From contig NW_003131573.1 of assembly GCF_000003605.2 (NCBI RefSeq), positions 1 through 30,292 of the forward strand: a DNA stretch of 30,292 nucleotides, in the 5' to 3' direction. This DNA is from Saccoglossus kowalevskii (taxonomy: Eukaryota; Hemichordata; Enteropneusta; Harrimaniidae). Under the pieces are notes generated by a model, which was not told the origin of the DNA, ran no database searches, and saw only the letters and a program-made list of their open reading frames with translations. Shown piece after piece: positions 835 through 30,036 of the stretch; position 1 is the first letter of the stretch; each line of letters opens with the position of its first letter. The translations under genes and the position numbers were made by a program.

Positions 835-880
835 TGTAAATGGCCCTGTCTACCTATAAATCTGAGGCTATCTGACTAAG
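835..880. other. Indel patch 1 (net -4)
   Basis: Losses are AAAA to AAA in GTAAATGG, TT to T in CCTATAAAT, CC to C in TATCTGA, and CC to C in GACTAAG. All fall in short homopolymers. The patch lies between block C copy 1 and block I copy 1. Confidence 0.8.
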
Positions 881-894
881 TTTGCATGTAAAAT

Positions 895-1286
895 GGCCCT
901 GTCTACCTATTAAATATGAGCCTATCCTGATCTAAGTTTGCATGTAAAATGGCCCTGTCCACCTATTAAATCTGAGGTTATCCTGACCTAAGTTTGCATG
1001 TAAAATGGCCCTGTCCATCTATTAAATCTGAGGCTATCCTGACCTAAGTTTGCATGTAAAATGGCCCTGTCCATCTATTAAATCTGAGGCTATCCTGACC
1101 TAAGTTTGCATGTAAAATGGCCCTGCCCACCTATTAAATCTGAGGCTATCCTGACCTAAGTTTGCATGTAAAATGGCCCTGTCCACCTATTAAATCTGAG
1201 GCTATCCTGACCTAAGTTTGCATGTAAAATGGCCCTATCCACCTATTAAATATGAGGCTATCCTGACCTAAGTTTGCATGTAAAAT
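895..1286 (+). repeat. Block I, copy 1 (7 monomers, short allele)
   Basis: The order is TCTACC-AAATATGAGCC-GATCT, TCCACC-GAGGTT, two TCCATC units, CCCACC, TCCACC, then the rare CTATCC monomer (near 1238) with AAATAT. The TCTACC-AAATAT-GACTT monomer found after the TCCATC pair in copies 2-4 is absent. The downstream order TCTACC, TTTATT, GAGCC and GGACC is also shared with copies 4 and 5. Confidence 0.8.
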
Positions 1287-1331
1287 GGCCCTGTCTACCT
1301 ATTAAATCTGAGGCTATCCTGACCTAAGTTT

Positions 1332-1386
1332 GCATGTAAAATGGCCCTGTCCACCTATTTATTTGAGGCTATCCTGACCTAAGTTT
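1332..1386 (+). repeat. 55-bp subtype (TTTATTTGAG form), first of about 51
   Basis: In this monomer the usual ATTAAATCTGAG becomes ATTTATTTGAG, one base shorter, so the unit is 55 bp. I count about 51 such units across the window, for example at 3205, 5770, 8950, 12080, 16150, 19105, 22690 and 28380. Nearly all carry TCCACC on the left and GAGG on the right. TCTACC occurs only near 2135 and 13411, and GAGCC only near 3205, 8950 and 16150. The tight linkage implies one founding mutation that spread as a haplotype. Three units (near 10130, 17490 and 21350) have TTTATCT instead. The exact edges of this entry may be off by a base or two. Confidence 0.85.
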
Positions 1387-1453
1387 GCATGTAAAATGGC
1401 CCTGTCTACCTATTAAATCTGAGCCTATCCTGACCTAAGTTTGCATGTAAAAT

Positions 1454-2572
1454 GGACCTGTCCACCTATTAAATCTGAGGCTATCCTGACCTAAGTTTGC
1501 ATGTAAAATGGCCCTGTCCAACTATTAAATATGAGGCTATCCTGACCTAAGTTTGCATGTAAAATGGCCCTGTCCACCTATTAAATCTGAGGCTATCCTG
1601 ACCTAAGTTTGCATGTAAAATGGCCCTGTCTACCTATTAAATCTGAGGCTATCCTGACCTAAGTTTGCATGTAAAATGGCCCTGTCTACCTATTAAATCT
1701 GAGGCTATCCTGACCTAAGTTTGCATGTAAAATGGCCCTGTCTACCTATTAAATCTGAGGCTATCCTGACCTAAGTTTGCATGTAAAATGGCCCTGTCCA
1801 CCTATTAAATATGAGGCTATCCTGACCTAAGTTTGCATGTAAAATGGCCCTGTCTACCTATTAAATCTGAGGCTATCCTGACCTAAGTTTGCATGTAATA
1901 TGGCCCTGTCTACCTATTAAATATGAGGCTATCCTGACCTAAGTTTGCATGTAAAATGGCCCTGTCTACCTATTAAATCTGAGGCTATCCTGACCTAAGT
2001 TTGCATGTAAAATGGCCCTGTCCACCTATTAAATCTGAGGCTATCCTGACCTAAGTTTGCATGTAAAATGGCCCTGTCTACCTATTAAATCTGAGGCTAT
2101 CCTGACCTAAGTTTGCATGTAAAATGGCCCTGTCTACCTATTTATTTGAGGCTATCCTGACCTAAGTTTGCATGTAAAATGGCCCTGTCTACCTATTAAA
2201 TCTGAGCCTATCCTGACCTAAGTTTGCATATAAAATGGCCCTGTCCACCTATTAAATCTGAGGCTATCCTGACCTAAGTTTGCATGTAAAATGGACCTGT
2301 CCACCTATTAAATCTGAGGCTATCCTGACCTAAGTTTGCATGTAAAATGGCCCTGTCCAACTATTAAATATGAGGCTATCCTGACCTAAGTTTGCATGTA
2401 AAATGGCCCTGTCCACCTATTAAATCTGAGGCTATCCTGACCTAAGTTTGCATGTAAAATGGCCCTGTCTACCTATTAAATCTGAGGCTATCCTGACCTA
2501 AGTTTGCATGTAAAATGGCCCTGTCTACCTATTAAATCTGAGGCTATCCTGACCTAAGTTTGCATGTAAAAT
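1454..2572 (+). repeat. Block D, copy 1 (20 monomers)
   Basis: It starts at a GGACC monomer and a TCCAAC-AAATAT monomer. It contains two rare core changes: GTAATATGG near 1897 and CATATAAAAT near 2227. Both recur exactly 11274 bp downstream in copy 2, which proves common descent or reuse of the same sequence. A TCTACC-TTTATT monomer near 2135 is also shared. Confidence 0.88.
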
Positions 2573-2907
2573 GGCCCTGTCTACCTATTAAATCTGAGGC
2601 TATCCTGACCTAAGTTTGCATGTAAAATGGCCCTGTCTACCTATTAAATCTGAGGCTATCCTGACCTAAGTTTGCATGTAAAATGGCCCTGTCTACCTAT
2701 TAAATCTGAGGCTATCCTGACCTAAGTTTGCATGTAAAATGGCCCTGTCTACCTATTAAATCTGAGGCTATCCTGACCTAAGTTTGCATGTAAAATGGCC
2801 CTGTCCACCTATTAAATCTGAGGCTATCCTGACCTAAGTTTGCATGTAAAATGGCCCTGTCCACCTATTTATTTGAGGCTATCCTGACCTAAGTTTGCAT
2901 GTAAAAT
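2349..2907 (+). repeat. Block D2, copy 1 (10 monomers)
   Basis: The order is one TCCAAC-AAATAT monomer, one TCCACC, a homogeneous run of six TCTACC monomers (2461-2796), one TCCACC and one TTTATT monomer. It overlaps the end of block D copy 1. The same 559-bp order recurs at 18588-19146. Confidence 0.75.
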
Positions 2908-2963
2908 GGCCCTGTCCATCTATTAAATCTGAGGCTATCCTGACCTAAGTTTGCATGTAAAAT

Positions 2964-3689
2964 GGCCCTGTCCACCTATTAAATATGAGGCTATCCTGAC
3001 CTAAGTTTGCATGTAAAATGGCCCTGTCTACCTATTAAATCTGAGGCTATCCTGACCTAAGTTTGCATGTAAAAATGGCCCTGTCTACCTATTAAATATG
3101 AGGCTATCCTGACCTAAGTTTGCATGTAAAATGGCCCTGTCTACCTATTAAATCTGAGGCTATCCTGACCTAAGTTTGCATGTAAAATGGCCCTGTCCAC
3201 CTATTTATTTGAGCCTATCCTGACCTAAGTTTGCATGTAAAATGGCCCTGTCTACCTATTAAATCTGAGCCTATCCTGACCTAAGTTTGCATGTAAAATG
3301 GCCCTGTCTACCTATTAAATCTGAGGCTATCCTGACCTAAGTTTGCATGTAAAATGGCCCTGTCCACCTATTTATTTGAGGCTATCCTGACCTAAGTTTG
3401 CATGTAAAATGGCCCTGTCTACCTATTAAATCTGAGCCTATCCTGACCTAAGTTTGCATGTAAAATGGCCCTGTCCACCTATTAAATCTGAGGCTATCCT
3501 GACCTAAGTTTGCATGTAAAATGGCCCTGTCCACCTATTAAATATGAGGCTATCCTGATCTAAGTTTGCATGTAAAATGGCCCTGTCCATCTATTAAATC
3601 TGAGGCTATCCTGACCTAAGTTTGCATGTAAAATGGCCCTGTCCACCTATTTATTTGAGGCTATCCTGACCTAAGTTTGCATGTAAAAT
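2964..3689 (+). repeat. Block B', copy 1 (13 monomers)
   Basis: The order includes a five-A core (GTAAAAATGG near 3072) and a TTTATTTGAGCC monomer near 3205. Both recur in copy 2 at 15910-16635, with the same 726-bp length. It overlaps block B copy 1. Confidence 0.85.
3133..3188 (+). repeat. reference monomer (commonest TCTACC/AAATCT/GAGGCT form)
   Basis: I use this copy as the reference, with position 1 at the first G of GGCC. Recurrent variable positions are: 3 (C or A), 5 (C, T or G), 7 (G or A), 8 (T or C), 10 (T or C), 12 (C, T or A), 17-22 (TAAATC, TAAATA or the shorter TTATT), 27 (G, C or A), 28 (C or T), 37 and 38 (C or T). Positions 39-56 plus 1-2 form a 20-bp core that changes in only about 16 of 542 copies. 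The core contains the imperfect dyad TTTGCATGTAAA at 43-54, which equals its reverse complement at 10 of 12 positions. Confidence 0.9.
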
Positions 3690-4025
3690 GGCCCTGTCTA
3701 CCTATTAAATCTGAGCCTATCCTGACCTAAGTTTGCATGTAAAATGGCCCTGTCCACCTATTAAATCTGAGGCTATCCTGACCTAAGTTTGCATGTAAAA
3801 TGGCCCTGTCCACCTATTAAATATGAGGCTATCCTGATCTAAGTTTGCATGTAAAATGGCCCTGTCTACCTATTAAATCTGAGGCTATCCTGACCTAAGT
3901 TTGCATGTAAAATGGCCCTGTCCACCTATTAAATCTGAGGCTATCCTGACCTAAGTTTGCATGTAAAATGGACCTGTCCACCTATTAAATCTGAGGCTAT
4001 CCTGACCTAAGTTTGCATGTAAAAT
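3133..4025 (+). repeat. Block B, copy 1 (16 monomers)
   Basis: This 893-bp run contains an internal near-repeat: TTTATT, GAGCC, TCCACC, AAATAT-GATCT occurs twice in a row with different last monomers (TCCATC, then TCTACC). It ends with a GGACC monomer. The next monomer (4026) is AAATAT, unlike copy 2. Confidence 0.85.
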
Positions 4026-4192
4026 GGCCCTGTCTACCTATTAAATATGAGGCTATCCTGACCTAAGTTTGCATGTAAAATGGCCTTGTCCACCTATTTA
4101 TTTGAGGCTATCATGACCTAAGTTTGCATGTAAAATGGCCCTGTCTACCTATTAAATCTGATCCTATCCTGACCTAAGTTTGCATGTAAAAT

Positions 4193-4808
4193 GGCCCTGT
4201 CCACATATTAAATCTGAGGCTATCCTGACCTAAGTTTGCATGTAAAATGGCCCTGTCCACCTATTAAATCTGAGACTATCCTGACCTAAGTTTGCATGTA
4301 AAATGGCCCTGTCCACCTATTAAATCTGAGGCTATCCTGATCTAAGTTTGGATGTAAAATGGCCTTGTCCACCTATTAAATCTGAGGCTATCCTGACCTA
4401 AGTTTGCATGTAAAATGGCCCTGTCCACCTATTAAATCTGAGCCTATCCTGACCTAAGTTTGCATGTAAAATGGCCCTGTCCATCTATTAAATCTGAGGC
4501 TATCCTGACCTAAGTTTGCATGTAAAATGGCCCTGTCCACCTATTAAATCTGAGGCTATCCTGACCTAAGTTTGCATGTAAAATGGCCCTGTCTACCTAT
4601 TAAATCTGAGCCTATCCTGACCTAAGTTTGCATGTAAAATGGCCCTGTCCATCTATTAAATCTGAGGCTATCCTGACCTAAGTTTGCATGTAAAATGGCC
4701 CTGTCCATCTATTAAATCTGAGGCTATCCTGACCTAAGTTTGCATGTAAAATGGCCCTGTCCACCTATTAAATCTGAGGCTATCCTGATCTAAGTTTGCA
4801 TGTAAAAT
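4193..4808 (+). repeat. Block F, copy 1 (11 monomers)
   Basis: It is marked by TCCACAT, GAGACT and the rare core change TTTGGATGT (near 4350), followed by a GGCCTTG monomer. It is exactly 616 bp. The preceding monomer is a unique TCTACC-GATCCT unit. Confidence 0.85.
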
Positions 4809-5759
4809 GGCCCTGTCCACCTATTAAATATGAGGCTATCCTGACCTAAGTTTGCATGTAAAATGGCCCTGCCCATCTATTAAATCTGAGGCTATCCTGA
4901 CCTAAGTTTGCATGTAAAATGGCCCTGTCCACCTATTAAATCTGAGGCTATCCTGACCTAAGTTTGCATGTAAAATGGCCTTGTCCACCTATTTATTTGA
5001 GGCTATCCTGACCTAAGTTTGCATGTAAAATGGCCCTGTCCATCTATTAAATCTGAGGCTATCCTGACCTAAGTTTGCATGTAAAATGGCCCTGTCCACC
5101 TATTAAATATGAGGTTATCCTGACCTAAGTTTGCATGTAAAATGGCCCTGCCCATCTATTAAATCTGAGGCTATCCTGACCTAAGTTTGCATGTAAAATG
5201 GCCCTGTCCACCTATTAAATCTGAGGCTATCCTGACCTAAGTTTGCATGTAAAATGGCCCTGTCTACCTATTAAATATGAGGCTATCCTGACCTAAGTTT
5301 GCATGTAAAATGGCCCTGTCTACCTATTAAATATGAGCCTATCCTGACCTAAGTTTGCATGTAAAATGGCCCTGTCTACCTATTAAATATGAGCCTATCC
5401 TGACCTAAGTTTGCATGTAAAATGGCCCTGTCTACCTATTAAATATGAGCCTATCCTGACCTAAGTTTGCATGTAAAATGGCCCTGTCCACCTATTAAAT
5501 ATGAGCCTATCCTGACCTAAGTTTGCATGTAAAATGGCCCTGTCTACCTATTAAATATGAGCCTATCCTGACCTAAGTTTGCATGTAAAATGGCCCTGTC
5601 CACCTATTAAATATGAGCCTATCCTGACCTAAGTTTGCATGTAAAATGGCCCTGTCTACCTATTAAATATGAGGCTATCCTGACCTAAGTTTGCATGTAA
5701 AATGGCCCTGTCCATCTATTAAATCTGAGGCTATCCTGACCTAAGTTTGCATGTAAAAT
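4809..5759 (+). repeat. Block E, copy 1 (17 monomers)
   Basis: It contains CCCATC monomers, a GGCCTTG-TTTATT monomer, and a run of six AAATATGAGCC monomers (5312-5647) that alternate TCTACC and TCCACC near the end. It recurs at 20041-20935 with one monomer fewer: the TCCATC and AAATATGAGGTT monomers at 5032-5143 are represented there by one hybrid unit. Confidence 0.85.
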
Positions 5760-7266
5760 GGCCCTGTCCACCTATTTATTTGAGGCTATCCTGACCTAAG
5801 TTTGCATGTAAAATGGCCCTGTCTACCTATTAAATCTGAGGCTATCCTGACCTAAGTTTGCATGTAAAATGGCCCTGTCTACCTATTAAATCTGAGGCTA
5901 TCCTGACCTAAGTTTGCATGTAAAATGGCCCTGTCCACCTATTAAATATGAGGCTATCCTGACCTAAGTTTGCATGTAAAATGGCCCTGTCTACCTATTA
6001 AATCTGAGCCTATCCTGACCTAAGTTTGCATGTAAAATGGCCCTGTCCACCTATTTATTTGAGGCTATCCTGACCTAAGTTTGCATGTAAAATGGCCCTG
6101 TCCACCTATTAAATCTGAGACTATCCTGACCTAAGTTTGCATGTAAAATGGCCCTGTCCACCTATTAAATCTGAGGCTATCCTGACCTAAGTTTGCATGT
6201 AAAATGGCCCTGTCCACCTATTTATTTGAGGCTATCCTGACCTAAGTTTGCATGTAAAATGGCCCTGTCTACCTATTAAATCTGAGCCTATCCTGACCTA
6301 AGTTTGCATGTAAAATGGCCCTGTCCACCTATTAAATATGAGCCTATCCTGACTTAAGTTTGCATGTAAAATGGCCCTGCCCACCTATTAAATCTGAGGC
6401 TATCCTGACCTAAGTTTGCATGTAAAATGGCCCTGTCCACCTATTTATTTGAGGCTATCCTGACTTAAGTTTGCATGTAAAATGGCCTTGTCCACCTATT
6501 AAATCTGAGGCTATCCTGACCTAAGTTTGCATGTAAAATGGCCTTGTCCACCTATTAAATCTGAGGCTATCCTGACCTAAGTTTGCATGTAAAATGGCCC
6601 TGTCCACCTATTTATTTGAGGCTATCCTGACTTAAGTTTGCATGTAAAATGGCCCTGTCCACCTATTAAATCTGAGGCTATCCTGACCTAAGTTTGCATG
6701 TAAAATGGCCCTGTCCACCTATTAAATCTGAGGCTATCCTGACCTAAGTTTGCATGTAAAATGGCCCTGCCCACCTATTAAATCTGAGGCTATCCTGACC
6801 TAAGTTTGCATGTAAAATGGCCCTGTCCACCTATTAAATCTGAGGCTATCCTGACCTAAGTTTGCATGTAAAATGGCCCTGTCCACCTATTAAATCTGAG
6901 GCTATCCTGACCTAAGTTTGCATGTAAAATGGCCCTGTCCATCTATTAAATCTGAGGCTATCCTGACCTAAGTTTGCATGTAAAATGGCCCTGTCTACCT
7001 ATTAAATATGAGCCTATCCTGACTTAAGTTTGCATGTAAAATGGCCCTGCCCACCTATTAAATCTGAGGCTATCCTGACCTAAGTTTGCATGTAAAATGG
7101 CCCTGTCCACCTATTAAATCTGAGGCTATCCTGACCTAAGTTTGCATGTAAAATGGCCCTGTCTACCTATTAAATATGAGCCTATCCTGACCTAAGTTTG
7201 CATGTAAAATGGCCCTGTCCATCTATTAAATCTGAGGCTATCCTGACCTAAGTTTGCATGTAAAAT

Positions 7267-8273
7267 GGCCCTGTCTACCTATTAAATATGAGCCTATCAT
7301 GACTTAAGTTTGCATGTAAAATGGCCCTGCCCACCTATTAAATCTGAGGCTATCCTGACCTAAGTTTGCATGTAAAATGGCCCTGTCCATCTATTAAATC
7401 TGAGGCTATCCTGACCTAAGTTTGCATGTAAAATGGTCCTGTCCATCTATTAAATCTGAGGCTATCCTGACCTAAGTTTGCATGTAAAATGGCCCTGTCT
7501 ACCTATTAAATATGAGCCTATCCTGACTTAAGTTTGCATGTAAAATGGCCCTGTCCACCTATTAAATCTGAGGCTATCCTGACCTAAGTTTGCATGTAAA
7601 ATGGCCCTGTCCACCTATTAAATCTGAGGCTATCCTGACCTAAGTTTGCATGTAAAATGGCCCTGTCTACCTATTAAATATGAGCCTATCCTGACCTAAG
7701 TTTGCCTGTAAAATGGCCCTGTCTACCTATTAAATATGAGCCTATCCTGATCTAAGTTTGCATGTAAAATGGCCCTGTCCACCTATTAAATCTGAGGCTA
7801 TCCTGACCTAAGTTTGCATGTAAAATGGCCCTGTCCATCTATTAAATCTGAGGCTATCCTGACCTAAGTTTGCATGTAAAATGGCCCTGTCCATCTATTA
7901 AATCTGAGGCTATCCTGACCTAAGTTTGCATGTAAAATGGCCCTGTCTACCTATTAAATATGAGCCTATCCTGACTTAAGTTTGCATGTAAAATGGCCCT
8001 GCCCACCAATTAAATCTGAGACTATCCTGACCTAAGTTTGCATGTAAAATGGCCCTGTCTACCTATTAAATCTGAGGCTATCCTGACCTAAGTTTGCATG
8101 TAAAATGGCCCTGTCCACCTATTAAATATGAGGTTATCCTGACCTAAGTTTGCATGTAAAATGGCCCTGTCCACCTATTTATTTGAGGCTATCCTGACCT
8201 AAGTTTGCATGTAAAATGGCCCTGTCCACCTATTAAATATGAGGCTATCCTGACCTAAGTTTGCATGTAAAAT
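7267..8273 (+). repeat. Block G, copy 1 (18 monomers)
   Basis: It is marked by a TTTGCCTGTAAA core change near 7705 and a CCCACC-GAGACT monomer with CCAATTAAA near 8008. It contains two TCCATC pairs. TATCATGACTT near 7300 and GGTCCTG near 7436 are private to this copy. It recurs at 26798-28084 and in part at 29480-30036. Confidence 0.85.
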
Positions 8274-8440
8274 GGCCCTGTCCACCTATTTATTTGAGGC
8301 TATCCTGACCTAAGTTTGCATGTAAAATGGCCCTGTCTACCTATTAAATCTGAGCCTATCCTGACCTAAGTTTGCATGTAAAATGGCCCTGTCCACCTAT
8401 TAAATCTGAGGCTATCCTGACCTAAGTTTGCATGTAAAAT

Positions 8441-8886
8441 GGCCCTGTCTACCTATTAAATATGAGCCTATCCTGATCTAAGTTTGCATGTAAAATGGCC
8501 CTGTCCACCTATTAAATCTGAGGTTATCCTGACCTAAGTTTGCATGTAAAATGGCCCTGTCCATCTATTAAATCTGAGGCTATCCTGACCTAAGTTTGCA
8601 TGTAAAATGGCCCTGTCCATCTATTAAATCTGAGGCTATCCTGACCTAAGTTTGCATGTAAAATGGCCCTGTCTACCTATTAAATATGAGCCTATCCTGA
8701 CTTAAGTTTGCATGTAAAATGGCCCTGCCCACCTATTAAATCTGAGGCTATCCTGACCTAAGTTTGCATGTAAAATGGCCCTGTCCACCTATTAAATCTG
8801 AGGCTATCCTGACCTAAGTTTGCATGTAAAATGGCCCTATCCACCTATTAAATATGAGCTATCCTGACCTAAGTTTGCATGTAAAT
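8441..8886 (+). repeat. Block I, copy 2 (8 monomers, long allele)
   Basis: It has the same order as 895-1286, plus one GACTT monomer after the TCCATC pair. Its CTATCC monomer at the right end has lost a G (GAGCTAT at 8856) and an A (GTAAATGG at 8881). Block B copy 2 begins immediately after these losses. Confidence 0.8.
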
Positions 8887-8888
8887 GG
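8855..8888. other. Indel patch 2 (net -2)
   Basis: GG to G in GAGCTAT and AAAA to AAA in GTAAATGG. It coincides with the last bases of block I copy 2, just before block B copy 2. Confidence 0.75.
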
Positions 8889-9779
8889 CCCTGTCTACCT
8901 ATTAAATCTGAGGCTATCCTGACCTAAGTTTGCATGTAAAATGGCCCTGTCCACCTATTTATTTGAGCCTATCCTGACCTAAGTTTGCATGTAAAATGGC
9001 CCTGTCAACCTATTAAATCTGAGCCTATCCTGACCTAAGTTTGCATGTAAAATGGCCCTGTCTACCTATTAAATCTGAGGCTATCCTGACCTAAGTTTGC
9101 ATGTAAAATGGCCCTGTCCACCTATTTATTTGAGGCTATCCTGACCTAAGTTTGCATGTAAAATGGCCCTGTCTACCTATTAAATCTGAGCCTATCCTGA
9201 CCTAAGTTTGCATGTAAAATGGCCCTGTCCACCTATTAAATCTGAGGCTATCCTGACCTAAGTTTGCATGTAAAATGGCCCTGTCCACCTATTAAATATG
9301 AGGCTATCCTGATCTAAGTTTGCATGTAAAATGGCCCTGTCCATCTATTAAATCTGAGGCTATCCTGACCTAAGTTTGCATGTAAAATGGCCCTGTCCAC
9401 CTATTTATTTGAGGCTATCCTGACCTAAGTTTGCATGTAAAATGGCCCTGTCTACCTATTAAATCTGAACCTATCCTGACCTAAGTTTGCATGTAAAATG
9501 GCCCTGTCCACCTATTAAATCTGAGGCTATCCTGACCTAAGTTTGCATGTAAAATGGCCCTGTCCACCTATTAAATATGAGGCTATCCTGATCTAAGTTT
9601 GCATGTAAAATGGCCCTGTCTACCTATTAAATCTGAGGCTATCCTGACCTAAGTTTGCATGTAAAATGGCCCTGTCCACCTATTAAATCTGAGGCTATCC
9701 TGACCTAAGTTTGCATGTAAAATGGACCTGTCCACCTATTAAATCTGAGGCTATCCTGACCTAAGTTTGCATGTAAAAT
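8887..9779 (+). repeat. Block B, copy 2 (16 monomers)
   Basis: Length is identical to 3133-4025 and the subtype order is the same, but it has two private substitutions: TCAACC (near 9006) in place of TCTACC, and GAACCT (near 9469) in place of GAGCCT. These show that the copies are not simply one sequence used twice. It runs directly into block A copy 1. Confidence 0.85.
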
Positions 9780-10281
9780 GGCCCTGTCTACCTATTAAAT
9801 ATGAGCCTATCCTGATCTAAGTTTGCATGTAAAATGGCCCTGTCCACCTATTAAATCTGAGCCTATCCTGACCTAAGTTTGCATGTAAAATGGCCCCACC
9901 CACCTATTAAATCTGAGGCTATCCTGACCTAAGTTTGCATGTAAAATGGCCGTGCCCACCTATTAAATATAAGCCTATCCTGACCTAAGTTTGCATGTAA
10001 AATGGCCCTGTCTACCTATTAAATCTGGGGCTATCCTGATCTAAGTTTGCATGTAAAATGGCCCTGCCCACCTATTAAATATGAGCCTATCCTGATCTAA
10101 GTTTGCATGTAAAATGGCTCTGTCCACCTATTTATCTGAGGTTATCCTGACCTAAGTTTGCATGTACAATGGCCCTGTCTACCTATTAAATCTGAGCCTA
10201 TCCTGACCTAAGTTTGCATGTAAAATGGCCCTGTCCACCTATTAATCTGAGCCTATCCTGACCTAAGTTTGCATGTAAAAT
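9780..10281 (+). repeat. Block A, copy 1 (9 monomers, truncated right)
   Basis: The block has the most distinctive markers in the window: GGCCCCACCCACC (near 9893), GGCCGTG with AATATAAGCC, CTGGGGCT, GGCTCTG with TTTATCTGAGGTT, then a GTACAATGG core (near 10167). It is broken on the right by the indel patch at 10240-10308. Copies 2 and 3 continue for five more monomers. Confidence 0.9.
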
Positions 10282-10308
10282 GGCCTGTCACTATTAAATA
10301 TGAGCTAT
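10240..10308. other. Indel patch 3 (net -5)
   Basis: ATTAATCT, GGCCTG, GTCACTATT (two C losses) and GAGCTAT all lose homopolymer bases. The patch spans the boundary between block A copy 1 and block K copy 1. Confidence 0.8.
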
Positions 10309-10779
10309 CCTGACCTAAGTTTGCATGTAAAATGGCCCTGTCCATCTATTAAATATGAGCCTATCCTGATCTAAGTTTGCATGTAAAATGGCCCTGTCCA
10401 CCTATTTATTTGAGGCTATCCTGACCTAAGTTTGCATGTAAAATGGCCCTGTCTACCTATTAAATCTGAGGCTATCCTGACCTAAGTTTGCATGTAAAAT
10501 GGCCCTGTCCACCTATTAAATATGAGGCTATCCTGACCTAAGTTTGCATGTAAAATGGCCCTGTCCACCTATTTATTTGAGGCTATCCTGACCTAAGTTT
10601 GCATGTAAAATGGCCCTGTCCATCTATTAAATCTGAGGCTATCCTGACCTAAGTTTGCATGTAAAATGGCCCTGTCCACCTATTAAATATGAGGTTATCC
10701 TGACCTAAGTTTGCATGTAAAATGGCCCTGCCCATCTATTAAATCTGAGGCTATCCTGACCTAAGTTTGCATGTAAAAT
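10282..10779 (+). repeat. Block K, copy 1 (9 monomers)
   Basis: The order is AAATAT, TCCATC-AAATAT-GATCT, TTTATT, TCTACC, TCCACC-AAATAT, TTTATT, TCCATC, AAATATGAGGTT, CCCATC. It matches 19427-19928. The first monomer is damaged (GGCCTGTCACTATT, GAGCTAT), losing four bases, and abuts block A copy 1. Confidence 0.75.
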
Positions 10780-11842
10780 GGCCCTGTCCACCTATTAAAT
10801 CTGAGGCTATCCTGACCTAAGTTTGCATGTAAAATGGCCCTGTCCACCTATTAAATCTGAGGCTATCCTGATCTAAGTTTGCATGTAAAATGGCCCTGTC
10901 CACCTATTTATTTGAGGCTATCCTGACCTAAGTTTGCATGTAAAATGGCCCTGTCCACCTATTAAATCTGAGGCTATCCTGACCTAAGTTTGCATGTAAA
11001 ATGGCCCTGTCCACCTATTAAATCTGAGCCTATCCTGACCTAAGTTTGCATGTAAAATGGCCCTGTCCATCTATTAAATCTGAGGCTATCCTGACCTAAG
11101 TTTGCATGTAAAATGGCCCTGTCCATCTATTAAATCTGAGGCTATCCTGACCTAAGTTTGCATGTAAAATGGCCCTGTCTACCTATTAAATATGAGCCTA
11201 TCCTGACTTAAGTTTGCATGTAAAATGGCCCTGCCCACCTATTAAATCTGAGGCTATCCTGACCTAAGTTTGCATGTAAAATGGCCCTGTCCACCTATTA
11301 AATCTGAGGCTATCCTGACCTAAGTTTGCATGTAAAATGGCCCTGTCTACCTATTAAATATGAGGCTATCCTGACCTAAGTTTGCATGTAAAATGGCCCT
11401 GTCTACCTATTAAATCTGAGGCTATCCTGACCTAAGTTTGCATGTAAAATGGCCCTGTCTACCTATTAAATATGAGGCTATCCTGACTTAAGTTTGCATG
11501 TAAAATGGCCCTGTCCACCTATTAAATCTGAGGCTATCCTGACCTAAGTTTGCATGTAAAATGGCCCTGTCTACCTATTAAATCTGAGCCTATCCTGACT
11601 TAAGTTTGCATGTAAAATGGCCTTGTCCACCTATTAAATCTGAGGCTATCCTGACCTAAGTTTGTATGTAAAATGGCCCTGTCCACCTATTAAATCTGAG
11701 GCTATCCTGACCTAAGTTTGCATGTAAAATGGCCTTGTCCACCTATTAAATCTGAGGCTATCCTGACCTAAGTTTGCATGTAAAATGGCCCTGTCTACCT
11801 ATTAAATCTGAGCCTATCCTGACCTAAGTTTGCATGTAAAAT

Positions 11843-18560: not shown

Positions 18561-18587
18561 ATCCTGACCTAAGTTTGCATGTAAAAT

Positions 18588-19538: not shown

Positions 19539-19928
19539 GGCCCTGTCCACCTATTTATTTGAGGCTATCCTGACCTAAGTTTGCATGTAAAATGGCCCTG
19601 TCTACCTATTAAATCTGAGGCTATCCTGACCTAAGTTTGCATGTAAAATGGCCCTGTCCACCTATTAAATATGAGGCTATCCTGACCTAAGTTTGCATGT
19701 AAAATGGCCCTGTCCACCTATTTATTTGAGGCTATCCTGACCTAAGTTTGCATGTAAAATGGCCCTGTCCATCTATTAAATCTGAGGCTATCCTGACCTA
19801 AGTTTGCATGTAAAATGGCCCTGTCCACCTATTAAATATGAGGTTATCCTGACCTAAGTTTGCATGTAAAATGGCCCTGCCCATCTATTAAATCTGAGGC
19901 TATCCTGACCTAAGTTTGCATGTAAAAT
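19427..19928 (+). repeat. Block K, copy 2 (9 monomers)
   Basis: This is the undamaged version of 10282-10779. Its left part overlaps block H copy 1. The AAATATGAGGTT then CCCATC pair at the right end is also found in block E and near 24290 and 28700. Confidence 0.75.
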
Positions 19929-20040
19929 GGCCCTGTCTACCTATTAAATCTGAGGCTATCCTGACCTAAGTTTGCATGTAAAATGGCCCTGTCCACCTAT
20001 TAAATATGAGGCTATCCTGACCTAAGTTTGCATGTAAAAT

Positions 20041-20935
20041 GGCCCTGTCCACCTATTAAATATGAGGCTATCCTGACCTAAGTTTGCATGTAAAATGGCC
20101 CTGCCCATCTATTAAATCTGAGGCTATCCTGACCTAAGTTTGCATGTAAAATGGCCCTGTCCACCTATTAAATCTGAGGCTATCCTGACCTAAGTTTGCA
20201 TGTAAAATGGCCTTGTCCACCTATTTATTTGAGGCTATCCTGACCTAAGTTTGCATGTAAAATGGCCCTGTCCATCTATTAAATATGAGGTTATCCTGAC
20301 CTAAGTTTGCATGTAAAATGGCCCTGCCCATCTATTAAATCTGAGGCTATCCTGACCTAAGTTTGCATGTAAAATGGCCCTGTCCACCTATTAAATCTGA
20401 GGCTATCCTGACCTAAGTTTGCATGTAAAATGGCCCTGTCTACCTATTAAATATGAGGCTATCCTGACCTAAGTTTGCATGTAAAATGGCCCTGTCTACC
20501 TATTAAATATGAGCCTATCCTGACCTAAGTTTGCATGTAAAATGGCCCTGTCTACCTATTAAATATGAGCCTATCCTGACCTAAGTTTGCATGTAAAATG
20601 GCCCTGTCTACCTATTAAATATGAGCCTATCCTGACCTAAGTTTGCATGTAAAATGGCCCTGTCCACCTATTAAATATGAGCCTATCCTGACCTAAGTTT
20701 GCATGTAAAATGGCCCTGTCTACCTATTAAATATGAGCCTATCCTGACCTAAGTTTGCATGTAAAATGGCCCTGTCCACCTATTAAATATGAGCCTATCC
20801 TGACCTAAGTTTGCATGTAAAATGGCCCTGTCTACCTATTAAATATGAGGCTATCCTGACCTAAGTTTGCATGTAAAATGGCCCTGTCCATCTATTAAAT
20901 CTGAGGCTATCCTGACCTAAGTTTGCATGTAAAAT
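20041..20935 (+). repeat. Block E, copy 2 (16 monomers)
   Basis: The order matches 4809-5759, except that monomer 20264-20319 joins a TCCATC left half to an AAATATGAGGTT right half and so replaces two monomers. The run of six AAATATGAGCC monomers is conserved. It is followed by a GGACC monomer and block A copy 3. Confidence 0.85.
20264..20319 (+). repeat. Hybrid monomer from intra-monomer exchange
   Basis: The left half is TCCATC, the right half AAATATGAGGTT. Elsewhere (5032-5143, and near 10617, 19760 and 24237) these sit on two consecutive monomers, followed by CCCATC as here. The simplest reading is deletion of exactly one period by unequal exchange inside the unit, between positions 12 and 22. 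No homopolymer damage is present nearby. Confidence 0.7.
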
Positions 20936-20991
20936 GGACCTGTCCACCTATTAAATCTGAGGCTATCCTGACCTAAGTTTGCATGTAAAAT

Positions 20992-21774
20992 GGCCCTGTC
21001 TACCTATTAAATATGAGCCTATCCTGATCTAAGTTTGCATGTAAAATGGCCCTGTCCACCTATTAAATCTGAGCCTATCCTGACCTAAGTTTGCATGTAA
21101 AATGGCCCCACCCACCTATTAAATCTGAGGCTATCCTGACCTAAGTTTGCATGTAAAATGGCCGTGCCCACCTATTAAATATAAGCCTATCCTGACCTAA
21201 GTTTGCATGTAAAATGGCCCTGTCTACCTATTAAATCTGGGGCTATCCTGATCTAAGTTTGCATGTAAAATGGCCCTGCCCACCTATTAAATATGAGCCT
21301 ATCCTGATCTAAGTTTGCATGTAAAATGGCTCTGTCCACCTATTTATCTGAGGTTATCCTGACCTAAGTTTGCATGTACAATGGCCCTGTCTACCTATTA
21401 AATCTGAGCCTATCCTGACCTAAGTTTGCATGTAAAATGGCCCTGTCCACCTATTAAATCTGAGCCTATCCTGACCTAAGTTTGCATGTAAAATGGCCCT
21501 GTCCACCTATTAAATCTGAGGCTATCCTGACCTAAGTTTGCATGTAAAATGGCCCTGTCCACCTATTAAATCTGAGCCTATCCTGACCTAAGTTTGCATG
21601 TAAAATGGCCCCACCCACCTATTAAATCTGAGGCTATCCTGACCTAAGTTTGCATGTAAAATGGCCCTGTCCACATATTAAATCTGAGGCTATCCTGACC
21701 TAAGTTTGCATGTAAAATGGCCCTGTCCACCTATTAAATCTGAGACTATCCTGACCTAAGTTTGCATGTAAAAT
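20992..21774 (+). repeat. Block A, copy 3 (14 monomers)
   Basis: It starts 3854 bp after copy 2, exactly 69 monomers after correcting for five short units and five lost bases. Length (783 bp) and order equal copy 2, but the second GGCCCCA monomer reads CCCACC. After GAGACT it diverges: TCTACC-GAGCC appears at 21775 where copy 2 has the TTTGGATGT monomer of block F. Confidence 0.9.
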
Positions 21775-22447
21775 GGCCCTGTCTACCTATTAAATCTGAG
21801 CCTATCCTGACCTAAGTTTGCATGTAAAATGGCCCTGTCCACCTATTAAATCTGAGGCTATCCTGATCTAAGTTTGCATGTAAAATGGCCCTGTCCACCT
21901 ATTAAATCTGAGGCTATCCTGACCTAAGTTTGCATGTAAAATGGCCCTGTCCACCTATTAAATCTGAGCCTATCCTGACCTAAGTTTGCATGTAAAATGG
22001 CCCTGTCCACCTATTAAATCTGAGGCTATCCTGACCTAAGTTTGCATGTAAAATGGCCCTGTCCATCTATTAAATCTGAGGCTATCCTGACCTAAGTTTG
22101 CATGTAAAATGGCCCTGTCTACCTATTAAATCTGAGGCTATCCTGACCTAAGTTTGCATGTAAAATGGCCCTGCCCACCTATTAAATCTGAGGCTATCCT
22201 GACTTAAGTTTGCATGTAAAATGGCCGTGCCCACCTATTAAATCTGAGGCTATCCTGACCTAAGTTTGCATGTAAAATGGCCCTGTCCACCTATTAAATC
22301 TGAGGCTATCCTGACCTAAGTTTGCATGTAAAATGGCCCTGTCTACCTATTAAATCTGAGGCTATCCTGACCTAAGTTTGCATGTAAAATGGCCCTGTCT
22401 ACCTATTAAATCTGAGGCTATCCTGACCTAAGTTTGCATGTAAAATG

Positions 22448-22782
22448 GGCCCTGTCTACCTATTAAATCTGAGGCTATCCTGACTTAAGTTTGCATGTAA
22501 AATGGCCTTGTCCACCTATTAAATATGAGGCTATCCTGACCTAAGTTTGCATGTAAAATGGCCCTGTCCACCTATTAAATCTGAGGCTATCCTGACTTAA
22601 GTTTGCATGTAAAATGGCCTTGTCCACCTATTAAATCTGAGGCTATCCTGACCTAAGTTTGCATGTAAAATGGCCCTGTCCACCTATTTATTTGAGGCTA
22701 TCCTGACCTAAGTTTGCATGTAAAATGGCCCTGCCCACCTATTAAATCTGAGGCTATCCTGACCTAAGTTTGCATGTAAAAT
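22448..22782 (+). repeat. Block J, copy 2 (6 monomers)
   Basis: It has the same 335-bp order as 11843-12177 except that its first monomer is TCTACC rather than TCCACC, with an extra G just before it (ATGGGCCC near 22446). It leads into block I copy 5. Confidence 0.72.
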
Positions 22783-23175
22783 GGCCCTGTCTACCTATTA
22801 AATATGAGCCTATCCTGATCTAAGTTTGCATGTAAAATGGCCCTGTCCACCTATTAAATCTGAGGTTATCCTGACCTAAGTTTGCATGTAAAATGGCCCT
22901 GTCCATCTATTAAATCTGAGGCTATCCTGACCTAAGTTTGCATGTAAAATGGCCCTGTCCATCTATTAAATCTGAGGCTATCCTGACCTAAGTTTGCATG
23001 TAAAATGGCCCTGCCCACCTATTAAATCTGAGGCTATCCTGACCTAAGTTTGCATGTAAAATGGCCCTGTCCACCTATTAAATCTGAGGCTATCCTGACC
23101 TAAGTTTGCATGTAAAATGGCCCTATCCACCTATTAAATATGAGGCTATCCTGACCTAAGTTTGCATGTAAAAAT
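22783..23175 (+). repeat. Block I, copy 5 (7 monomers, short allele)
   Basis: It lacks the GACTT monomer, like copy 1, and carries the CTATCC monomer near 23122. An extra A (GTAAAAATGG) lies at about 23171. The shared order continues through TCTACC, a TTTATTTT unit with an added T near 23251, GAGCC, GGACC and TCCAAC. The region then breaks up into the indel patch at 23301-23465. Confidence 0.8.
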
Positions 23176-23300
23176 GGCCCTGTCTACCTATTAAATCTGA
23201 GGCTATCCTGACCTAAGTTTGCATGTAAAATGGCCCTGTCCACCTATTTATTTTGAGGCTATCCTGACCTAAGTTTGCATGTAAAATGGCCCTGTCTACC

Positions 23301-23465
23301 TATTAATCTGAGCCTATCCTGACCTAAGTTTGCATGTAAATGGACCTGTCCACCTATTAAATCTGAGCTATCCTGACCTAAGTTTGCATGTAAATGGCCC
23401 TGTCCAACTATTAAATATGAGCTATCCTGACCTAGTTTGCATGTAAATGGCCCTGTCCACTATTA
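23301..23465. other. Indel patch 7 (net -8)
   Basis: ATTAATCT, GTAAATGG three times, GAGCTAT twice, CCTAGTTT and TCCACTATT lose bases. Single-base gains lie just upstream (five A near 23171, four T near 23251). It joins the block I copy 5 extension to a partial block F order at 23504. Confidence 0.85.
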
Positions 23466-24702
23466 AATCTGAGCCTATCCTGACCTAAGTTTGCATGTAA
23501 AATGGCCCTGTCCATCTATTAAATCTGAGGCTATCCTGACCTAAGTTTGCATGTAAAATGGCCCTGTCCACCTATTAAATCTGAGGCTATCCTGACCTAA
23601 GTTTGCATGTAAAATGGCCCTGTCTACCTATTAAATCTGAGCCTATCCTGACCTAAGTTTGCATGTAAAATGGCCCTGTCCATCTATTAAATCTGAGGCT
23701 ATCCTGACCTAAGTTTGCATGTAAAATGGCCCTGTCCATCTATTAAATCTGAGGCTATCCTGACCTAAGTTTGCATGTAAAATGGCCCTGTCCACCTATT
23801 AAATCTGAGGCTATCCTGACCTAAGTTTGCATGTAAAATGGCCCTGTCTACCTATTAAATATGAGCCTATCCTGACTTAAGTTTGCATGTAAAATGGCCC
23901 TGTCCACCTATTAAATCTGAGGCTATCCTGACCTAAGTTTGCATGTAAAATGGCCCTGTCCACCTATTTATTTGAGGCTATCCTGACCTAAGTTTGCATG
24001 TAAAATGGCCCTGTCCATCTATTAAATCTGAGGCTATCCTGACCTAAGTTTGCATGTAAAATGGCCCTGTCCACCTATTAAATCTGAGGCTATCCTGACC
24101 TAAGTTTGCATGTAAAATGGCCCTGTCTACCTATTAAATCTGAGGCTATCCTGACCTAAGTTTGCATGTAAAATGGCCCTGTCCACCTATTAAATATGAG
24201 GCTATCCTGACCTAAGTTTGCATGTAAAATGGCCCTGTCCATCTATTAAATCTGAGGCTATCCTGACCTAAGTTTGCATGTAAAATGGCCCTGTCCACCT
24301 ATTAAATATGAGGTTATCCTGACCTAAGTTTGCATGTAAAATGGCCCTGCCCATCTATTAAATCTGAGGCTATCCTGACCTAAGTTTGCATGTAAAATGG
24401 CCCTGTCTACCTATTAAATATGAGCCTATCCTGACCTAAGTTTGCATGTAAAATGGCCCTGTCCATCTATTAAATCTGAGGCTATCCTGACCTAAGTTTG
24501 CATGTAAAATGGCCCTGTCCATCTATTAAATCTGAGGCTATCCTGACCTAAGTTTGCATGTAAAATGGCCTTGTCCACCTATTAAATCTGAGGCTATCCT
24601 GACCTAAGTTTGCATGTAAAATGGCCCTGTCTACCTATTAAATATGAGCCTATCCTGACTTAAGTTTGCATGTAAAATGGCCCTGTCCACCTATTAAATC
24701 TG

Positions 24703-24812
24703 AGCTATCCTGACCTAAGTTTGCATGTAAAATGGCCCTGTCCACCTATTTATTTGAGGCTATCTGACTAAGTTGCATGTAAAATGGCCTGTCTACCTAT
24801 TAAATCTGAGCT
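24703..24812. other. Indel patch 8 (net -6)
   Basis: GAGCTAT twice, TATCTGACTAAGTTGCAT (three losses) and GGCCTG. To the left the order is GACTT, TCCACC, TTTATT, as near 28260-28418. To the right it is TCTACC, TCCACC, GGACC, as at the end of block B, so this is again a junction. Confidence 0.8.
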
Positions 24813-24951
24813 ATCCTGACCTAAGTTTGCATGTAAAATGGCCCTGTCCACCTATTAAATCTGAGGCTATCCTGACCTAAGTTTGCATGTAAAATGGACC
24901 TGTCCACCTATTAAATCTGAGGCTATCCTGACCTAAGTTTGCATGTAAAAT

Positions 24952-25398
24952 GGCCCTGTCCACCTATTTATTTGAGGCTATCCTGACCTAAGTTTGCATG
25001 TAAAATGGCCCTGTCTACCTATTAAATCTGAGCCTATCCTGACCTAAGTTTGCATGTAAAATGGCCCTGTCTACCTATTAAATCTGAGCCTATCCTGACC
25101 TAAGTTTGCATGTAAAATGGCCGTGTCTACCTATTAAATATGAGTCTATCCTGACCTAAGTTTGCATGTAAAATGGCCCTGTCCACCTATTAAATCTGAG
25201 GCTATCCTGACCTAAGTTTGCATGTAAAATGGCCCTGTCCAACTATTAAATCTGAGGCTATCCTGATCTAAGTTTGCATGTAAAATGGCCCTGTCCACCT
25301 ATTAAATATGAGCCTATCCTGATCTAAGTTTGCATGTAAAATGGCCCTGTCCATCTATTAAATATGAGCCTATCCTGATCTAAGTTTGCATGTAAAAT
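24952..25398 (+). repeat. Block H, copy 2 (8 monomers)
   Basis: Markers and length are identical to 19092-19538 (GGCCGTGTCTACC near 25121). It is preceded by GGACC rather than TCCACC and followed by TCCATC rather than TTTATT, so both ends are breakpoints relative to copy 1. Confidence 0.85.
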
Positions 25399-26797
25399 GG
25401 CCCTGTCCATCTATTAAATCTGAGGCTATCCTGACCTAAGTTTGCATGTAAAATGGCCCTGTCTACCTATTAAATCTGAGGCTATCCTGACCTAAGTTTG
25501 CATGTAAAATGGCCCTGTCTACCTATTAAATCTGAGCCTATCCTGACCTAAGTTTGCATGTAAAATGGCCCTGTCCACATATTAAATCTGAGGCTATCCT
25601 GACCTAAGTTTGCATGTAAAATGGCCCTGTCTACCTATTAAATCTGAGGCTATCCTGACCTAAGTTTGCATGTAAAATGGCCCTGTCTACCTATTAAATC
25701 TGAGGTTATCCTGACCTAAGTTTGCATGTAAAATGGCCCTGTCTACCTATTAAATCTGAGCCTATCCTAACCTAAGTTTGCATGTACAATGGCCCTGTCT
25801 ACCTATTAAATCTGAGCCTATCCTGACCTAAGTTTGCATGTAAAATGGCCCTGCCCACCTATTAAATCTGAGGCTATCCTGACCTAAGTTTGCATGTAAA
25901 ATGGCCCTGTCCACCTATTAAATATGAGCCTATCCTGATCTAAGTTTGCATGTAAAATGGCCCTGTCCACCTATTAAATCTGAGGCTATCCTGACCTAAG
26001 TTTGCATGTACAATGGCCCTGTCTACCTATTAAATCTGAGCCTATCCTGACCTAAGTTTGCATGTAAAATGGCCCTGTCTACCTATTAAATCTGAGCCTA
26101 TCCTGACCTAAGTTTGCATGTAAAATGGCCCTGTCTACCTATTAAATCTGAGGCTATCCTGACCTAAGTTTGCATGTAAAATGGCCCTGTCTACCTATTA
26201 AATATGAGCCTATCCTGATCTAAGTTTGCATGTAAAATGGCCCTGTCCACCTATTAAATCTGAGGCTATCCTGACCTAAGTTTGCATGTAAAATGGCCCT
26301 GTCCACCTATTAAATCTGAGGCTATCCTGACCTAAGTTTGCATGTAAAATGGCCCTGTCCACCTATTAAATCTGAGCCTATCCTGACCTAAGTTTGCATG
26401 TAAAATGGCCCCACCCACCTATTAAATCTGAGGCTATCCTGACCTAAGTTTGCATGTAAAATGGCCCTGTCCACCTATTTATTTGAGGCTATCCTGACCT
26501 AAGTTTGCATGTAAAATGGCCCTGTCTACCTATTAAATCTGAGGCTATCCTGACCTAAGTTTGCATGTAAAATGGCCCTGTCTACCTATTAAATCTGAGG
26601 CTATCCTGACCTAAGTTTGCATGTAAAATGGCCCTGTCTACCTATTAAATCTGAGGCTATCCTGATCTAAGTTTGCATGTAAAATGGCCCTGTCTACCTA
26701 TTAAATCTGAGGCTATCCTTATCTAAGTTTGCATGTAAAATGGCCCTGTCTACCTATTAAATCTGAGGCTATCCTGACCTAAGTTTGCATGTAAAAT

Positions 26798-28084
26798 GGC
26801 CCTGTCTACCTATTAAATATGAGCCTATCCTGACTTAAGTTTGCATGTAAAATGGCCCTGCCCACCTATTAAATCTGAGGCTATCCTGACCTAAGTTTGC
26901 ATGTAAAATGGCCCTGTCCATCTATTAAATCTGAGGCTATCCTGACCTAAGTTTGCATGTAAAATGGCCCTGTCCATCTATTAAATCTGAGGCTATCCTG
27001 ACCTAAGTTTGCATGTAAAATGGCCCTGTCTACCTATTAAATATGAGCCTATCCTGACTTAAGTTTGCATGTAAAATGGCCCTGCCCACCTATTAAATCT
27101 GAGGCTATCCTGACCTAAGTTTGCATGTAAAATGGCCCTGTCCACCTATTAAATCTGAGGCTATCCTGACCTAAGTTTGCATGTAAAATGGCCCTGTCTA
27201 CCTATTAAATATGAGCCTATCCTGACCTAAGTTTGCCTGTAAAATGGCCCTGTCTACCTATTAAATATGAGCCTATCCTGATCTAAGTTTGCATGTAAAA
27301 TGGCCCTGTCCACCTATTAAATCTGAGGCTATCCTGACCTAAGTTTGCATGTAAAATGGCCCTGCCCACCTATTAAATCTGAGGCTATCCTGACCTAAGT
27401 TTGCATGCAAAATGGCCCTGTCCACCTATTAAATCTGAGGCTATCCTGACCTAAGTTTGCATGTAAAATGGCCCTGTCTACCTATTAAATATGAGCCTAT
27501 CCTGACCTAAGTTTGCATGTAAAATGGCCCTGTCTACCTATTAAATATGAGCCTATCCTGATCTAAGTTTGCATGTAAAATGGCCCTGTCCACCTATTAA
27601 ATCTGAGGCTATCCTGACCTAAGTTTGCATGTAAAATGGCCCTGTCCATCTATTAAATCTGAGGCTATCCTGACCTAAGTTTGCATGTAAAATGGCCCTG
27701 TCCATCTATTAAATCTGAGGCTATCCTGACCTAAGTTTGCATGTAAAATGGCCCTGTCTACCTATTAAATATGAGCCTATCCTGACTTAAGTTTGCATGT
27801 AAAATGGCCCTGCCCACCTATTAAATCTGAGACTATCCTGACCTAAGTTTGCATGTAAAATGGCCCTGTCTACCTATTAAATCTGAGGCTATCCTGACCT
27901 AAGTTTGCATGTAAAATGGCCCTGTCCACCTATTAAATATGAGGTTATCCTGACCTAAGTTTGCATGTAAAATGGCCCTGTCCACCTATTTATTTGAGGC
28001 TATCCTGACCTAAGTTTGCATGTAAAATGGCCCTGTCCACCTATTAAATATGAGGCTATCCTGACCTAAGTTTGCATGTAAAAT
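26798..28084 (+). repeat. Block G, copy 2 (23 monomers, internal 5-monomer duplication)
   Basis: It has the same order as 7267-8273 with TTTGCCTGTAAA near 27236. Five extra monomers (280 bp, about 27302-27581) repeat the neighbouring order TCCACC, CCCACC, TCCACC, TCTACC-AAATATGAGCC and TCTACC-AAATAT-GATCT. One monomer of the extra set has ATGCAAAATGG near 27408, unique in the window. Confidence 0.85.
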
Positions 28085-28474
28085 GGCCCTGCCCACCTAT
28101 TAAATCTGAGGCTATCCTGACCTAAGTTTGCATGTAAAATGGCCCTGTCCACCTATTTATTTGAGGCTATCCTGACCTAAGTTTGCATGTAAAATGGCCT
28201 TGTCTACCTATTAAATCTGAGGCTATCCTGACCTAAGTTTGCATGTAAAATGGCCCTGTCTACCTATTAAATATGAGCCTATCCTGACTTAAGTTTGCAT
28301 GTAAAATGGCCCTGTCCACCTATTAAATCTGAGGCTATCCTGACCTAAGTTTGCATGTAAAATGGCCCTGTCCACCTATTTATTTGAGGCTATCCTGACC
28401 TAAGTTTGCATGTAAAATGGCCCTGTCTACCTATTAAATCTGAGGCTATCCTGACCTAAGTTTGCATGTAAAAT

Positions 28475-28730
28475 GGCCCTGTCCACCTATTAAATCTGAG
28501 CCTATCCTGACCTAAGTTTGCATGTAAAATGGCCCTGTCCACCTATTAAATATGAGGCTATCCTGACCTAAGTTTGCATGTAAAATGGCCCTGTCCACCT
28601 ATTTATTTGAGGCTATCCTGACCTAAGTTTGCATGTAAAATGGCCCTGTCCACCTATTAAATCTGAGGCTATCCTGACCTAAGTTTGCATGTAAAATGGC
28701 CCTGTCCACCTATTAAATATGAGGTTATCC
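28475..28730 (+). repeat. Block M, copy 1 (about 4.6 monomers)
   Basis: The order is TCCACC-GAGCC, TCCACC-AAATAT, TTTATT, TCCACC, AAATATGAGGTT. It matches the right edge of the window at 30037-30292 over 256 bp. After this copy the array continues with two CCCATC monomers. Confidence 0.7.
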
Positions 28731-29414
28731 TGACCTAAGTTTGCATGTAAAATGGCCCTGCCCATCTATTAAATCTGAGGCTATCCTGACCTAAGTTTGC
28801 ATGTAAAATGGCCCTGCCCATCTATTAAATCTGAGGCTATCCTGACCTAAGTTTGCATGTAAAATGGCCCTGTCTACCTATTAAATCTGAGGCTATCCTG
28901 ACCTAAGTTTGCATGTAAAATGGCCCTGTCCACCTATTTATTTGAGGCTATCCTGACCTAAGTTTGCATGTAAAATGGCCCTGTCTACCTATTAAATCTG
29001 AGCCTATCCTGACCTAAGTTTGCATGTAAAATGGCCCTGTCCATCTATTAAATCTGAGGCTATCCTGACCTAAGTTTGCATGTAAAATGGCCCTGTCCAT
29101 CTATTAAATCTGAGGCTATCCTGACCTAAGTTTGCATGTAAAATGGCCCTGTCTACCTATTAAATATGAGCCTATCCTGACTTAAGTTTGCATGTAAAAT
29201 GGCCCTGCCCACCTATTAAATCTGAGGCTATCCTGACCTAAGTTTGCATGTAAAATGGCCCTGTCCACCTATTAAATCTGAGGCTATCCTGACCTAAGTT
29301 TGCATGTAAAATGGCCCTGTCTACCTATTAAATATGAGCCTATCCTGACCTAAGTTTGCATGTAAAATGGCCCTGTCTACCTATTAAATATGAGCCTATC
29401 CTGACCTAAGTTTG

Positions 29415-29428
29415 CATGTAAATGGCCC
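29415..29428. other. Indel patch 9 (single loss)
   Basis: One A is lost in GTAAATGG. The subtype order changes here: two TCTACC-AAATATGAGCC monomers are followed by TCCATC and then block G copy 3. Confidence 0.55.
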
Positions 29429-29479
29429 TGTCCATCTATTAAATCTGAGGCTATCCTGACCTAAGTTTGCATGTAAAAT

Positions 29480-30036
29480 GGCCCTGTCTACCTATTAAAT
29501 ATGAGCCTATCCTGACTTAAGTTTGCATGTAAAATGGCCCTGCCCACCTATTAAATCTGAGGCTATCCTGACCTAAGTTTGCATGTAAAATGGCCCTGTC
29601 CATCTATTAAATCTGAGGCTATCCTGACCTAAGTTTGCATGTAAAATGGCCCTGTCCATCTATTAAATCTGAGGCTATCCTGACCTAAGTTTGCATGTAA
29701 AATGGCCCTGTCTACCTATTAAATATGAGCCTATCCTGACTTAAGTTTGCATGTAAAATGGCCCTGCCCACCTATTAAATCTGAGGCTATCCTGACCTAA
29801 GTTTGCATGTAAAATGGCCCTGTCCACCTATTAAATCTGAGGCTATCCTGACCTAAGTTTGCATGTAAAATGGCCCTGTCTACCTATTAAATATGAGCCT
29901 ATCCTGACCTAAGTTTGCCTGTAAATGGCCCTGTCTACCTATTAATATGAGCCTATCCTGATCTAGTTTGCATGTAAAATGGCCCTGTCCACCTATTAAA
30001 TCTGAGGCTATCCTGACCTAAGTTTGCATGTAAAAT
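29480..30036 (+). repeat. Block G, copy 3 (10 monomers, partial)
   Basis: It matches the first ten monomers of copies 1 and 2, including TTTGCCTGTAAA near 29919. Three bases are lost between 29920 and 29968, after which the order switches to block M. Position 6 of the run is CCCACC, as in copy 2, while copy 1 has TCCACC. Confidence 0.82.
29918..29970. other. Indel patch 10 (net -3)
   Basis: GTAAATGG, ATTAATAT and TCTAGTTT each lose one A. The block G copy 3 order ends here and block M copy 2 follows from 30037. Confidence 0.75.

Follow-up and report, generated by a model that had tools for sequence, protein, structure and literature searches.

The single-base losses of a tandem satellite array are concentrated in ten short patches and carry a strand mark: with one ambiguous column left out, each monomer with several losses has either purine runs or pyrimidine runs shortened, the class changes from purine to pyrimidine in the four patches that contain both, and nearly all patches lie where one duplicated block of the array gives way to another. 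The losses themselves are, in our estimate, very likely technical, and the patches are probably the residue of an assembler or read-corrector that stitched satellite segments together. The original prediction, according to which homopolymer losses coincide with junctions between duplicated blocks, is thereby confirmed as an observation, and its interpretation is partly supported and sharpened; the strand mark of the losses is new and was absent from it.

Losses and their strand mark

The window analysed here is the whole contig C2330, which comprises 30,292 bases of a 572-Mb assembly with 4,830 contigs. It is a tandem satellite array with a 56-bp unit that is repeated head-to-tail in 542.6 copies at 94% match (Table 1). 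The wrap-around alignment to this unit, from which all substitution and indel counts were taken, divides the window into 544 monomers or part-monomers, among which there are 102 exact subtypes, and yields a total of 866 substitutions, 102 deleted bases and 6 inserted bases. Monomer lengths range from 52 to 58 bases, save for end pieces of 1 and 35 bases.

With the 55-bp subtype left out of all loss counts, the array contains 52 single-base losses, and every one of them is located in a consensus run of two to four bases; bases in runs of two or more make up half of the window. Neighbouring columns are never lost together. Fifty of the losses fall inside the ten patches, which represent 25 of the 544 monomers, and the remaining two are found at positions 20 and 14215. 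Both the type of loss and the ten predicted locations are thus borne out. Since the patches were defined by the losses themselves, their clustering serves as an independent test: 49 of the 52 losses have another one at a distance of at most 60 bases, a number that averaged 9.6 and never exceeded 28 when the losses were placed uniformly 10,000 times. In the 16 purine-class monomers, the five purine runs per monomer account for 30 losses (12 from AAAA, seven from AAA, seven from GG at column 28, three from AA and one from GG at column 3), a rate far above replication error.

Table 1. The satellite array and its ten loss patches (positions in the window; class of losses with column 28 left out)
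Feature	Positions	Strand	Class	Description
Whole contig, 56-bp satellite array	1..30292	+		544 monomers or part-monomers, 102 exact subtypes
Patch 1	837..875	+	Purine then pyrimidine	Losses A, T, C, C; right block begins directly after
Patch 2	8857..8882	+	Purine only	Purine plus one column-28 loss; left-block material
Patch 3	10243..10303	+	Purine then pyrimidine	Flip between monomers 184 and 185
Patch 4 (largest)	12482..12688	+	Purine then pyrimidine	Purine losses, chimera-like monomer, then pyrimidine losses plus two inserted bases
Patch 5	13605..13669	+	Purine only	Purine plus column 28; left-block material
Patch 6	18441..18557	+	Purine only	Purine plus column 28; monomers without clear agreement with either donor
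Patch 7	23304..23459	+	Purine then pyrimidine	Seven losses, of which five are clear purine and two fall in column 28, followed by one pyrimidine loss
Patch 8	24703..24809	+	Pyrimidine only	Pyrimidine plus column 28; weak left donor
Patch 9	29419..29419	+	Purine only	Single purine loss; monomer follows neither donor
Patch 10	29922..29964	+	Purine only	Left-block material, one monomer before switch

The ambiguous column 28 was left out of the main strand test, because GAGCT may stem either from GAGGCT or from GAGCCT. The remaining 39 losses comprise 23 purine and 16 pyrimidine losses. All 11 monomers with more than one loss are restricted to a single class, i.e. purine only or pyrimidine only. 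Neighbouring losses within a patch belong to the same class in 25 of 29 cases, and all four changes lead from purine to pyrimidine, with none in the reverse direction. The purity of the monomers, the likeness of the neighbours and the common direction of the four changes were each reached by 0 of 20,000 label shuffles. When column 28 is counted as G, 14 of 17 monomers are pure (11 of 20,000 shuffles reach this value), neighbours are alike in 31 of 40 cases (30 of 20,000 shuffles), and six changes run one way and three the other; the strand signal is weaker but kept. Purine and pyrimidine runs interleave along the 56-bp unit, and the position within the unit therefore does not explain the strand purity.

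The order rule is based on the four mixed patches. The flip of patch 7 coincides exactly with the block switch, namely, between monomer 420 as the last one of the left block and monomer 421 as the first one of the right block, and patches 3 and 4 fit. Monomer 184 of patch 3 follows the left block and monomer 185 fits neither donor fully. The flip in patch 4 falls within monomer 226, which we read as a chimera of the left path and another subtype; its allele at column 9 agrees with the left path (cf. monomers 156-159 and 263-266), and columns 20-24 carry alleles of the 55-bp subtype. The position of the flip relative to the switch cannot be placed in patch 1. Monomer 16 likewise fits neither donor fully.

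Block switches, clean joints and control satellites

The window contains 21 block pairs of at least eight monomers. The comparison of their monomers revealed identity in 203 of 219 cases and differences in 16, and the private substitutions predicted near 9006, 9469, 17757 and 7436 were present in each of the four cases. Nine of the ten patches are located at a strong block switch (score of at least 15 on each side and an excess of at least 12, with patch monomers made neutral), compared with 356 of 1,377 patch-free placements (26%), which overlap and are not independent, making this comparison a guide and not a strict probability. The median switch excess is 49 for the patches and 13 for the background. 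Patch 8 is the exception to the predicted coincidence; its left flank lacks a clear donor, and its subtypes are common ones. In a stricter, exact test with five monomers per side, five of the ten patches have both flanks duplicated elsewhere on different diagonals, and the background values are 29 of 406 (width 2), 23 of 415 (width 1) and 32 of 397 (width 3). Five patches were likewise obtained with three monomers per side, versus 76 of 443 at width 2, and under this setting the flanks of patch 5 lie on a shared diagonal. Seven patches (1, 2, 3, 5, 7, 8 and 10) open with one or more monomers that follow the left block, and patches 4, 6 and 9 agree with neither of the named donors. Clean joints, whose presence had also been anticipated, are documented by the 42 ends of the block pairs of at least eight monomers; at 24 of these ends, neither copy has a patch at a distance of two monomers or less.

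Eight runs of at least four monomers are single-copy; seven of them are free of such indels and one has a single insertion. The two longest (5758-6928 and 25397-26795; 1.2 and 1.4 kb) contain no losses. The second has six monomers in common with a 14-copy array of the same unit in another contig (C16:24693-25467). A 20-base probe with up to two mismatches detected at least 518 forward and at least 13 reverse sites in the assembly, with 517 inside the window, and the 12 sites outside it among the matches listed are all located in this short array. It has rare subtypes in common with the window and the same order of six monomers as window monomers 475-480, which suggests that the two arrays are close kin. 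They are perhaps alleles of one locus, the C16 array being a short allele or perhaps the source of the long array. ABC-transporter-like coding stretches flank the short array on both sides; these open stretches correspond to successive segments of the Pfam ABC transporter domain (E = 2e-4 and 9e-5), both below the curated cut-off. A search of plasmids and phages with 1,001 bases of the window gave no match, and the same holds for an exact 37-base pattern in genome contigs and an exact 32-base pattern in viral contigs.

None of the monomers of the same cleaned subtype outside the patches carries any of the patch losses. Eight of the 25 patch monomers have a loss in common with another patch monomer, exclusively at columns 20, 28 or 54. 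Patches 5 and 7 agree in three losses on the same subtype pair; columns 28 and 54, at which these occur, are the two hottest of all columns, and hot columns or common descent may explain the agreement. This rare subtype pair (5A; 14A,24A), on which both patches lie, occupies 13565-13671 and 23340-23446, and a further copy of it directly follows the end of patch 4. Three of the six insertions represent one variant with an extra A in an AAAA run (3071, 16017 and 23170); the sites at 3071 and 16017 correspond to each other within a block pair. We read this variant, unlike the patch losses, as an inherited indel.

As controls we used the first 10 kb of each of the 20 contigs adjoining in number (C2320-C2340 without C2330). 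This neighbourhood is satellite-rich and consists mostly of short contigs; 16 of the 20 harbor arrays that occupy more than 4 kb of this piece and whose units measure 30 to 363 bases, and one further contig, C2321, is an array in part only. Strand-pure loss patches were found neither in the 16 control arrays, of which at most 10 kb each were covered, nor in three further stretches of the assembly that were checked for them. Nine of the 16 arrays contain at least four exact block pairs within 10 kb, compared with two, four and one in the three 10-kb pieces of the window, which indicates that mosaicism is normal here and by itself brings no patches. Ten loss clusters in C2335 were rejected as patches, since they arise from longer, partly recurring indels. 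The 31 rare single-base losses of C2327, 22 of them in runs, are unclustered (six with a near neighbour; simulated mean 9.7).

The terminal 800 bases on both sides of 14 control arrays (C2321, C2335 and C2336 left out) exhibit no polar pattern and no strand-pure patch. Single homopolymer losses of either class are located within 60 bases of contig ends at window position 20 and in four of these 14 controls (C2332, C2333, C2337 and C2338). The last 120 bases of C2323 are full of indels and hold two more homopolymer losses; this end seems to leave the array. In C2326 (positions 1-10000) the 363-base tandem unit contains a tRNA-like gene. ARAGORN, run with the bacterial code, reported 16 tRNA genes in these 10 kb, mostly tRNA-Leu(TAG) of about 89 nt, and we take the gene to resemble an intron-bearing tRNA-Tyr gene.

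Origin of the patches

The losses look technical because they are dense, strand-pure and absent from same-subtype monomers outside the patches. In this respect the original interpretation is supported. Raw long reads bridging corrected segments, as proposed there, should, however, add substitutions, and rare substitutions (alleles seen up to three times) are not in clear excess within the patches, with three in 25 patch monomers and 37 in the 519 others; two of the six insertions lie inside a patch. A systematic single-strand error therefore fits better than plain raw reads. According to the mechanism that we consider probable, each half-patch would have been read from one strand, and the method used would tend to drop bases from the purine runs of that strand. 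Left of the joint, the strand entering from the left would be kept and A and G runs would be short; right of the joint, the opposite strand would be kept and C and T runs would appear short on the plus strand. The two single-strand read-outs would end at the joint, tail to tail, and their overlap in the 56-bp register would make the join. Purine-only, pyrimidine-only and purine-then-pyrimidine patches as well as clean joints would be allowed by this tail-to-tail arrangement, and pyrimidine-then-purine patches would be forbidden, in agreement with the classes in Table 1. The strands would then be those of sequencing reads, the platform would be one with such an under-calling of purine runs, and the joins would be missing from the chromosome.

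Several observations speak against stitching. The 16 patch-free control satellites document that the assembly does not carry this fault throughout. Retained read tails might be expected at the ends of control arrays and were not seen there. Some patches are separated by 0.5 to 1.4 kb, which is less than the length of a long read, and the agreement of patches 5 and 7 in three losses also counts against it.

A possible but rather unlikely reading is that the joints represent real chromosome structure and that only the consensus is poor there. Reads from other block copies would support the blocks and not the joint, where a few one-strand reads would keep their systematic losses, and order and copy number would largely be right. 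Block mosaics with clean joints are indeed common here, and losses that are systematic by column and strand are what a thin one-strand consensus would leave. The loss-free single-copy stretches of 1.2 and 1.4 kb are difficult to reconcile with this scenario, an objection that is softened by the six C16 monomers in the second one and by the chance that the reads contain additional copies of one or the other. The nine mosaic controls with at least four block pairs, and hence joints, also lack such patches.

The assumption that order and copy number are partly an assembly product may hold for the marked joints, which alone are suspect; the mosaic as a whole is no artefact, as the nine of 16 controls and the 24 of 42 clean block ends indicate. 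Block order and copy number across the ten marked joints of C2330 are unproven and should not be relied on. If the stitching reading is true, the strand class of the losses provides a read-free test for doubtful satellite joints, which locates the joint and orients both of its sides.

It is very unlikely that the patches date from the DNA preparation prior to sequencing. Incomplete strands could anneal out of register during library amplification and be extended, thereby producing chimeras with 3' ends that meet at the joint. The joins do keep register and orientation, and both sides of a joint can be marked. However, the 16 purine-class monomers, each with five purine runs, carry 30 losses. 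About a third of these runs are thus affected, and library polymerases are not known to lose a base at such a frequency.

We consider it highly improbable that the patches are scars of error-prone recombination repair (break-induced replication), in which nascent 3' strands slip in runs and then switch template. In yeast the mutations arising from this process are for the most part 1-bp deletions, of which 70-100% affect runs of at least two bases, and their rate can reach 2,800 times the normal one (PMC3039667). The claim that biological exchange does not produce homopolymer losses was thus too strong, and it is the density of the losses, not their kind, that argues against exchange. Deletions in runs, polarity and template switching all fit, and 1-bp deletions in runs do lie beside what would be template switches in the window. 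Fifty losses in 25 monomers would nevertheless be far beyond the rate of this process, which furthermore has to contend with the lack of a clear substitution excess and with the monomers of the same subtypes that are free of patch losses. Accordingly small is the chance that the losses are present in the chromosome as repair scars, with both 3' ends extended convergently up to about 150 bases by a polymerase slipping on pyrimidine-run templates; if this were true, the convergent purine-loss signature would mark and orient satellite rearrangements.

Ordinary independent mutation in the array, to which the two losses outside the patches (20 and 14215) could be assigned, is a practically negligible explanation, since the clustering was unmatched in 10,000 simulations and the strand purity in 20,000 shuffles. 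Four further candidates were rejected: homopolymer compression, as runs of three or four are one base short and no adjacent columns are lost together; losses wherever the sequence is single-copy, as clean single-copy stretches exist; random end ligation, which would hardly keep the 56-bp register and the orientation of the joins; and joined contig ends, as those of the 14 control arrays have scattered single losses and no polar pattern.

Comparison with known systems

Mosaic satellite arrays, exemplified by nine of the 16 controls, likewise consist of subtype blocks that are repeated with few differences; they differ from the window in being free of strand-pure loss patches. The accessible parts of the literature on assembly and read error and on strand-specific purine loss contain no description of strand-marked losses at satellite joints, and those on purine loss provided no source for the loss from purine runs in particular. 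The HiCanu authors state that read self-correction in Canu can homogenise near-identical repeats (PMC7545148). Such homogenisation would make block copies alike and joints less supported; strand-marked losses at joints are not described in the part of that source that was available. Break-induced replication (PMC3039667) resembles the window in its 1-bp deletions in runs of two or more, and differs in that the density in the window is far higher and the losses are clustered around joints. Strand-specific miscalls are on record for nanopore sequencing (PMC10039527). This base-calling error of single-strand long reads is alike in that it affects one read strand and depends on the context. The example given there is a C/T miscall, whereas the window exhibits only single-base losses, which would be losses of purines on the strand that was read and are located mostly at block joints.
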